NCBI GenBank assembly: GCA_030622125.1
Contig: JAUXGM010000083.1
Location: 1 to 9,954, forward strand
From: a bacterium
GTDB lineage: Bacteria > AUK180
DNA: 9,954 nt
Direction: 5' to 3'
Translations under genes and position numbers: made by a program
Notes under the pieces: generated by a model
Database searches by the model: none
Seen by the model: only the letters and a program-made list of their open reading frames with translations
Told to the model about the DNA's origin: nothing
In this document: one piece after another, positions 3-1,121 of the stretch
Layout of the letters: the number at the start of each line of letters is the position of its first letter
Numbering within the stretch: the stretch's first letter is position 1

Positions 3-1121
3 GAAGGAGAAGCTGAAGAAACAGTGATCTATACTCCTGATGAGAAACCGGGAGAAAAATTAGAAGGAACCATAGAAAAAGAGGATAGAGGCATGCCCAG
101 CACCAATTTGGTGCGGGGTGAAAGGTTAGAGGATAGTGAAGAAAAGACAAAAGAAGATACAGAAAAAGCAAAAGAAGAAGAAGAAATCACAAAACCCATA
201 ACCACAGAGAAAACAGAGAAAGAAGAAGTAGAACCGGAAATAATTGAAGAAAAAACAAATGAAAAGCCAGAAACAGAGAAAGAAAAAGTTGAAGAAATAA
301 TTGCTCCGACAATAGATATGAATCAGGAAGTAGTATCACAGCCAAACAGGGGACATACCTCGGATGTTCAGGTGTGTCCCGATGAAACCGAGGGAATCCA
401 GTCGCAAACTCCGCAACAAACGGAGGAAACTGCAGAAAAAGAGGTTGGTGAAGAAGAAAAAGCCGAGAAAGAAAAAGCAGAGAAAGAAACCATAGAGAAA
501 GAAACGCTTGAAGGCAAAAAGCCCGTTAAATCAAAGTTTAGCGATAGATATAAGAAAAAAGAAAAAGTAAAAAAGGTAAAAATAAAGAAGACGAAACCCG
601 AAAAAGAAAAAAGCAAAAAAAGTCCACTCTTAACAATTGTTTTAATAATTATTTTGATTGTTGTTTTTATTGCAATTGCTCTGTTCCTTTCAAATCAGAA
701 TGACAAAATTAGACAGATATTTCCAATAGGAAAAAGAGAGGTTCGAGGCAATAAAAAAACAGTGAATGGTGAGAAGTTCACCCCGTTAAAGACGGAATCT
801 CTAACGGGGTTAATAGTGAAAAGTGAAGAAGAAAAAGCAGAGAAAGAAAAAACAATTAAAGAAAAAATTATCAAGAATTTTTATGTTCAAGCCGGGTCAT
901 ATACAAAAAAAGAGAGCGCACTTGAAGAAGTTTCAAAATTTGAAAAGATTGGATTCAATGCCGGAATCGTTGAAGTTGATATAAATGGAGTGCATTACTT
1001 TCGGGTAAGAATAACCGGAGCTTCGCCTACAAGGGAAAAAGCAATGGAGAAAATTAAAAAGATAAAATCAGCGGGCTGGAAAGAGGATCTTTATCCTTTT
1101 TTAGAGACGGAGGCAAAATGA
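3..1121 (+). CDS. SPOR-domain envelope protein, 5'-truncated by the window edge
   Basis: SPOR domains bind denuded peptidoglycan glycans, typically at division septa. The reading frame is open from base 3 with no stop, so the GTG at 24 is probably internal and the true N-terminus lies upstream. Residues below count from that GTG. Residues 1-199 are low-complexity Glu/Lys/Thr-rich and probably disordered. A lysine-rich stretch (about 165-199) precedes one hydrophobic helix (202-222), so by the positive-inside rule the N-terminal part should be cytoplasmic and the rest periplasmic. Residues 223-283 form a charged linker. Residues 284-360 are the SPOR domain, opening with NFYVQAGSY and containing a second FRVRI strand. 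The transmembrane helix is internal rather than N-terminal, which leaves room for a missing cytoplasmic domain. In Bacteroidota a similar layout carries an HU/CCDC81-like domain; that comparison is inference. Three palindromes interrupt the low-complexity parts in frame. The stop overlaps the next ATG as ATGA. Confidence 0.85.
   Translation, partial: EGEAEETVIYTPDEKPGEKLEGTIEKEDRGMPSTNLVRGERLEDSEEKTKEDTEKAKEEEEITKPITTEKTEKEEVEPEIIEEKTNEKPETEKEKVEEIIAPTIDMNQEVVSQPNRGHTSDVQVCPDETEGIQSQTPQQTEETAEKEVGEEEKAEKEKAEKETIEKETLEGKKPVKSKFSDRYKKKEKVKKVKIKKTKPEKEKSKKSPLLTIVLIIILIVVFIAIALFLSNQNDKIRQIFPIGKREVRGNKKTVNGEKFTPLKTESLTGLIVKSEEEKAEKEKTIKEKIIKNFYVQAGSYTKKESALEEVSKFEKIGFNAGIVEVDINGVHYFRVRITGASPTREKAMEKIKKIKSAGWKEDLYPFLETEAK
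94..120. repeat. Palindromic element 1 inside the SPOR gene
   Basis: This is an imperfect inverted repeat. GCACCA (100-105) pairs with TGGTGC (109-114) around a 3-nt loop. After one A-G mismatch (99/115) the stem continues through CCC (96-98)/GGG (116-118) with G-T wobbles outside. It is clearly richer in G+C than the flanking GAA/AAA codons. It encodes residues about 24-32 (MPSTNLVRG), which differ from the Glu/Lys-rich surroundings, and it does not break the frame. No T-tract follows, so it is not a terminator. Confidence 0.6.
350..380. repeat. Palindromic element 2 inside the SPOR gene
   Basis: An 11-bp stem joins GGGACATACCT (350-360) to AGGTGTGTCCC (370-380), with one wobble pair (356/374) and a 9-nt loop. 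The element is 31 nt long and is read in frame as RGHTSDVQVCP (residues 109-119), including the only Cys in the disordered region. A competing pairing exists between CCTCGG (358-363) and CCGAGG (388-393), and a further small hairpin, CTCCG/CGGAG, lies at 409-425. The structured, inserted-looking stretch may therefore extend over roughly 340-430. Confidence 0.65.
450..480 (+). repeat. Glu/Lys-coding repeat, copy 1
   Basis: This stretch encodes EEEKAEKEKAEK and nearly repeats the DNA at 825-854, which encodes EEEKAEKEKTIK. The two copies flank the membrane helix of the SPOR protein. They may reflect internal duplication or convergent low-complexity codon use, since the gene is full of gaa/aaa codons. 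I rate it as minor. Confidence 0.45.
780..810. repeat. Palindromic element 3 inside the SPOR gene
   Basis: A perfect 9-bp inverted repeat, ACCCCGTTA (780-788) and TAACGGGGT (802-810), continues after one A-C mismatch with AGA (790-792)/TCT (798-800) around a 5-nt loop. The element is 31 nt long and is read as part of TPLKTESLTGL (from residue 253), in the linker between the membrane helix and the SPOR domain. GGTGA (768-772)/TCACC (778-782) just upstream gives an alternative small hairpin. Its sequence is unrelated to elements 1 and 2. Confidence 0.65.
825..854 (+). repeat. Glu/Lys-coding repeat, copy 2
   Basis: This is the second near-identical copy of the stretch at 450-480, on the periplasmic side of the membrane helix. 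It directly follows palindromic element 3 and precedes the SPOR domain. Confidence 0.45.

Follow-up and report, generated by a model that had tools for sequence, protein, structure and literature searches.

Palindromes in a gene for a SPOR-domain membrane protein

How did three short palindromes come to lie in a single gene for a SPOR-domain membrane protein without breaking its reading frame? The window that we analyzed is the whole of contig C44 (9954 nt) of a 2.08-Mb genome in 192 contigs (G000), and coordinates follow its numbering unless another contig or locus is named. An inverted-repeat search of the window placed the arms at 96-106/108-118, 350-360/370-380 and 777-792/798-813 (elements A, B and C, respectively; Table 1). 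A search for arms no shorter than 11 nt with no more than 1 mismatch and a loop of up to 12 left exactly three hairpins in the window, every one inside the SPOR open reading frame; 200 dinucleotide shuffles of the gene yielded a mean of 0.01 such hairpins and never reached three. Folding of the single-stranded DNA gave z-scores of -3.1, -2.9 and -4.3 for A, B and C. The hairpins that a preliminary description had reported at 94-120, 350-380 and 780-810 are real, being the sole strong G+C-containing ones in the window, and the frame is open through all three, as had been stated. The Pfam SPOR match (E=3.2e-9, residues 291-357) covers about nt 873-1073 and the membrane helix, as read off the sequence, about nt 624-690. 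Because these coordinates are clear of all three hairpins, the domain and the helix are indeed free of them.

Table 1. Positions of the elements, their host gene and examples of 7-nt arrays
Feature	Position	Strand	Description
SPOR-domain membrane protein gene	3..1121	+	open frame; 5' part cut by contig start
Element A	91..120	+	palindrome CCCAGCACCAATTTGGTGCGGGG in GAGGNNN heptamer-like frame 81-139; encodes (ED)RGMPSTNLVRGERLE
Element B	350..380	+	31-nt palindrome GGGACATACCT-CGGATGTTC-AGGTGTGTCCC; encodes RGHTSDVQVCP
ACCGAGGGAATCCAGTCGCAAACTCCG	387..413	+	piece of another dispersed repeat adjoining B; in-frame TEGIQSQTP
Element C	780..810	+	palindrome CCCCGTTAAAGACGGAATCTCTAACGGGG in TGAATAG heptamer-like array 738-832; encodes TPLKTESLTG
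Degenerate 7-nt array, example	L108:9047-9158
Degenerate 7-nt array, example	L098:1663-1840
Degenerate 7-nt array, example	L109:2166-2252

The extents first given for the three elements were amended: A is better bounded at 91-120, within the heptamer-like frame 81-139, the repeated frame around C spans about 738-832, and B forms the core of a longer in-frame repeated unit at about 344-413 that is common to contig C29. The repeat adjoining B has related words at C29, C34, C52, C58, C162 and C47, in the last of which it is coding (TEGIQMQTP). That the elements are of three unrelated kinds did not fully hold for A and C, which are partly alike, because a copy on contig C38 combines the stem of C with the frame of A (GGCATG-CCCC...GGGG-TGAAA).

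The elements are multicopy and mostly intergenic

A genome search within 3 mismatches located element A (GCATGCCCAGCACCAATTTGGTGCGGGGTG) at 15 places, element B at about 25 and element C at 9, against 0-1 places for the reversed-pattern controls. Approximate counts in 889 kb of sampled sequence were ~20 for A (loop variants counted), 26 for B and 10 for C; given that this sample, ~43% of the genome in stretches, was in part picked for holding elements, the densities are not those of an unbiased sample. These copy numbers dispose of the possibility that each element occurs only once. The majority of the copies are intergenic. At C89:15246, between genes, lies an A copy that is base-for-base identical to that of the SPOR gene; for B, an identical copy lies on C29 and another in a different genus (G002:C213). 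In the same 889 kb, 15-mers seen at least 5 times made up 22.6% of non-ORF bases versus 0.65% of ORF bases. Element A had no match in viral contigs, nor had the B pattern with a fixed loop, and no copy of A was found in the six relatives searched. The G000 sample also holds several kinds of GGGAC...GTCCC palindromes that have GGGAC[A/G][C/T]A ends in common and differ in their interiors. One of them, GGGACACACGATGCAAGCAACGTATGTCCC, has 7 copies; it looks as though many different cores could be combined with a single terminal motif.

Repeats of this kind interrupt the assembly, 58 of 126 contig ends carrying them compared with 4% of random windows, and the contig start is 91 nt away from element A. 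Window nt 1-90 resemble part of an unrelated Roadblock-protein gene on C47 (L096, minus strand), with one mismatch seen; this near-identity suggests either that disordered regions bearing repeats have exchanged sequence or that the contig is mis-joined. Repeat collapse might accordingly have fused intergenic repeats to the SPOR gene. We regard such an artefact as very improbable: B and C are shorter than usual reads, lie deep in the contig and have in-frame SPOR coding sequence on either side; the same in-frame pattern recurs in several other genes; and G000:C36:4631-5395, probably the N-terminal part of the SPOR gene, terminates in element A in a frame that matches the window copy.

Element B matches the ends of a Y1 transposase gene

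The genome contains four Y1_Tnp (IS200-like) genes, in keeping with the expectation that an IS200-type transposase would be present, and a link to an element emerged for B only, through the terminal repeats of the gene on contig C172. Inverted repeats of the GGGGACGGTGGT... kind bound three of the four genes; the one on C172 has B-type ends (TTAGGGACACACCTCGC...) and encodes a Y1_Tnp protein with a weak DnaA-type HTH match. Element B repeats the C172 TIR (GGGACACACCT-CG), its arms corresponding to the C172 terminal repeats fused head to head. An orthologue of the C172 gene in G002 (C235) has 66% identity, the same neighbours and a perfect TIR (TTAGGGACACACCTCGC...). Among the six relatives searched, both element B and the C172 orthologue were found only in G002; G001, G003 and G004, of the same family, had no B, and their best C172-like proteins reached at most ~42% identity. 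As for a TIRYT-associated repeat, then, B matches the TIR of a Y1 transposase in the same genome, although one orthologue common to two genomes is a small sample for this link.

Elements A and C flank none of the four Y1 genes of G000, and no transposase partner was found for them there. The unrelated GGGGACGGTGGT ends of three of the four Y1 genes led us to reject a single transposase for all three elements. IS200-like Y1 genes with inverted GGGGACGGTGGTT-type ends are widespread in the family (G000:C73, C140 and C141; relatives' loci L061-L088), and these end repeats agree from gene to gene over no more than their first 8 to 12 bases.

Elements A and C are nested in heptamer arrays

Filamentous cyanobacteria carry short heptameric tandem repeats, that is, degenerate 7-nt arrays scattered between genes. 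Those of the present genome differ in being of several unit types, in hosting hairpins and in also being read in frame. The flanks of A and C have lag-7 identities of 0.43 and 0.46 versus 0.30 at random, and Tandem Repeats Finder returned many 7-nt arrays of ~4-5 units and several kinds. Degenerate arrays (AGGTTAG, ACAATTG, TGAATAG, AGGTCAA and others) occupy intergenic regions and genic tails, and some are translated in frame (RGSRLEVSEE, TIDNGQLTIDNE, KKTMNSEELIVNSEE).

The nesting of A and C in these arrays raises the alternative that the elements spread with no transposase at all, through gene conversion or homologous recombination among heptamer arrays of low complexity, together with tandem slippage. 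Since C44 and C47 share ~90 nt past the element, recombination between arrays is possible, and two L17 copies of A likewise have flanks in common. Yet element A occurs in two array kinds, AGGTTAG and AAAGGTT, and B is found in other contexts with arms that match transposase terminal repeats, so that recombination as the only process appears unlikely.

Relatives lack the elements and the genome holds empty sites

The gene order around the SPOR gene is the same in the relatives' loci L049, L050 and L051; the closest named records, the MAGs JAGLGN, JAGLWT and JAGGYO, have 58-61% protein identity. Comparison with relatives showed SPOR and L17 proteins with similar disordered regions or tails that are devoid of A/B/C-type peptides, arguing against the possibility that all orthologues carry the same conserved peptides, and so the disordered stretches probably predate the repeats.

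Within the genome, alignment of the window with the C-hosting array on C58, which has no hairpin, showed the window to be longer by a net 33 nt, and alignment with the C-hosting array in the L15 tail, which holds a different hairpin, by a net 30 nt. The A-hosting frame occurs without the hairpin (GAGGATAGAGGCTCGAGGTTAGAGG) in C47 and C58, with a net difference of 27 nt. Each of these length differences is a multiple of three. Given that there is no pair of full and empty SPOR genes at close distance, the nearest relatives having ~60% protein identity, we infer insertion into the SPOR gene from the paralogous sites and from the absence in orthologues.

The elements could instead be kept for a regulatory function, as RNA or DNA hairpins that stabilise mRNA, act as terminators or bind proteins, as their folding is stable and, in the contexts examined, intergenic copies often stand directly 3' of genes. 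We consider this very improbable, as the same gene in the relatives examined lacks the elements, identical copies are spread over unrelated contexts, and the SPOR-gene copies have no T run after them.

Other proteins carry the repeats in frame

The SPOR gene had been proposed to be a special landing site for small mobile palindromes. This idea was ruled out because several other genes also carry repeats in frame in disordered Glu/Lys-rich regions: copies of A, B or C or of their companion repeats occur in the Roadblock/LC7 protein of C47, in ribosomal proteins L17 and L15 of C110 and in proteins of C58 and C31. Of these, the L15 tail, the C31 protein, which has TPR matches, and the C58 membrane protein contain related repeat peptides; the L15 gene is taken to be such from its position before secY. 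Coding copies of A number seven (the window, the end of C36, two in C47, two in C110 and one in C58), all in one frame and one orientation and reading RGMPSTNLVRGE or a near variant, although three of the six frames of the A unit are open. At L098:1354-2229 (minus strand) and L098:7757-8245 (minus strand), genes for L17 and, by gene order, L15 have long C-terminal tails that are largely built of repeats.

Discussion

The multicopy state, the identical intergenic copies, the orthologues that lack the elements, the empty sites within the genome and the match of B to transposase ends support the earlier reading of the hairpins as mobile palindromes. Very probably they are small dispersed palindromes of a mobile type that were inserted in frame into disordered Glu/Lys-rich regions of the SPOR protein, B deriving from a TIRYT and A and C travelling with arrays. 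From the sequence relationships we propose that B is a miniature of the fused ends of a C172-type TIRYT (Y1, HUH) gene, probably spread by a C172-type Y1 enzyme that worked in trans on hairpins of single-stranded DNA. The other two elements, A and C, would form a separate pair of related hairpins that lie within 7-nt arrays and spread along with them, and the motor for these arrays may be a Y1 enzyme or recombination between arrays. The disordered SPOR regions would tolerate the extra peptides that insertions add, and selection would purge insertions that break frames or folds, so that genic copies would persist only in disordered, open-frame stretches. Both transposition in trans and the neutrality of the peptides are what we infer.

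The elements recall several known systems. Rickettsia palindromic elements (RPEs) are in-frame palindromes in Rickettsia genes (Ogata et al. 2000, 2002, as summarized in PMC10969869 and PMC3733652). Like RPEs as described in these summaries, the present elements are dispersed, partly intergenic palindromes that lie in frame in unrelated genes and give the same peptide each time; RPEs are by the same accounts longer (~150 bp) and belong to another phylum. The elements here are palindromic, multicopy and in frame in genes that lack them in relatives, a likeness of features. They further differ from RPEs in being concentrated in regions that were already disordered and rich in Glu and Lys, and A and C in being nested in heptamer arrays.

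Intragenic REPs tagged with GTAG or CGTC are known from several bacteria, and some of them lie in frame within known proteins (Di Nocera et al. 2013, PMC3733652). A, B and C share with REPs, as characterized there, a size of 20-40 bp, many copies and a chiefly extragenic location. Inspection by eye of the flanks of the listed copies revealed no constant GTAG/CGTC tag; the tags are GGCATG/TGAA for A and C, and B has GGGAC ends. Because the GTAG/CGTC tags are absent, the elements fall outside the REP superfamilies so defined, alike as their behaviour is.

TIRYTs, assigned to subclass 2.1 of the Y1 proteins in PMC6006769, are the type of Y1 transposase with such TIRs, and PMC3733652 describes the corresponding TIR repeat families. 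B resembles these TIRtron/TIRYT systems, as outlined in the two sources, in that its arms match the TIR of a Y1-plus-HTH protein, and its TIR, GGGACAC(AC), is similar to the TIRYT motif GGGGWSAS given there. B differs from the systems so outlined in being one compact 31-nt fused palindrome with one copy coding in frame; no in-frame insertion of the TIR type was met with in the sections of these sources consulted.

The spread of palindromes within genes is best known in Rickettsia and in a few REP-rich species; here it is met in an uncultivated lineage, where palindromic repeats reach the tails of ribosomal proteins. We suggest tentatively, and with somewhat less than even confidence, that heptamer arrays with nested hairpins are in-frame tail-building modules outside the Rickettsiales that repeatedly lengthen disordered regions of essential proteins such as ribosomal L15 and L17, one family being driven by a TIR-associated Y1 transposase. 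Because the terminal repeats that match B single out one particular transposase, the entry of such elements into genes becomes testable, and the locus illustrates a route whereby mobile DNA enlarges disordered regions of proteins.
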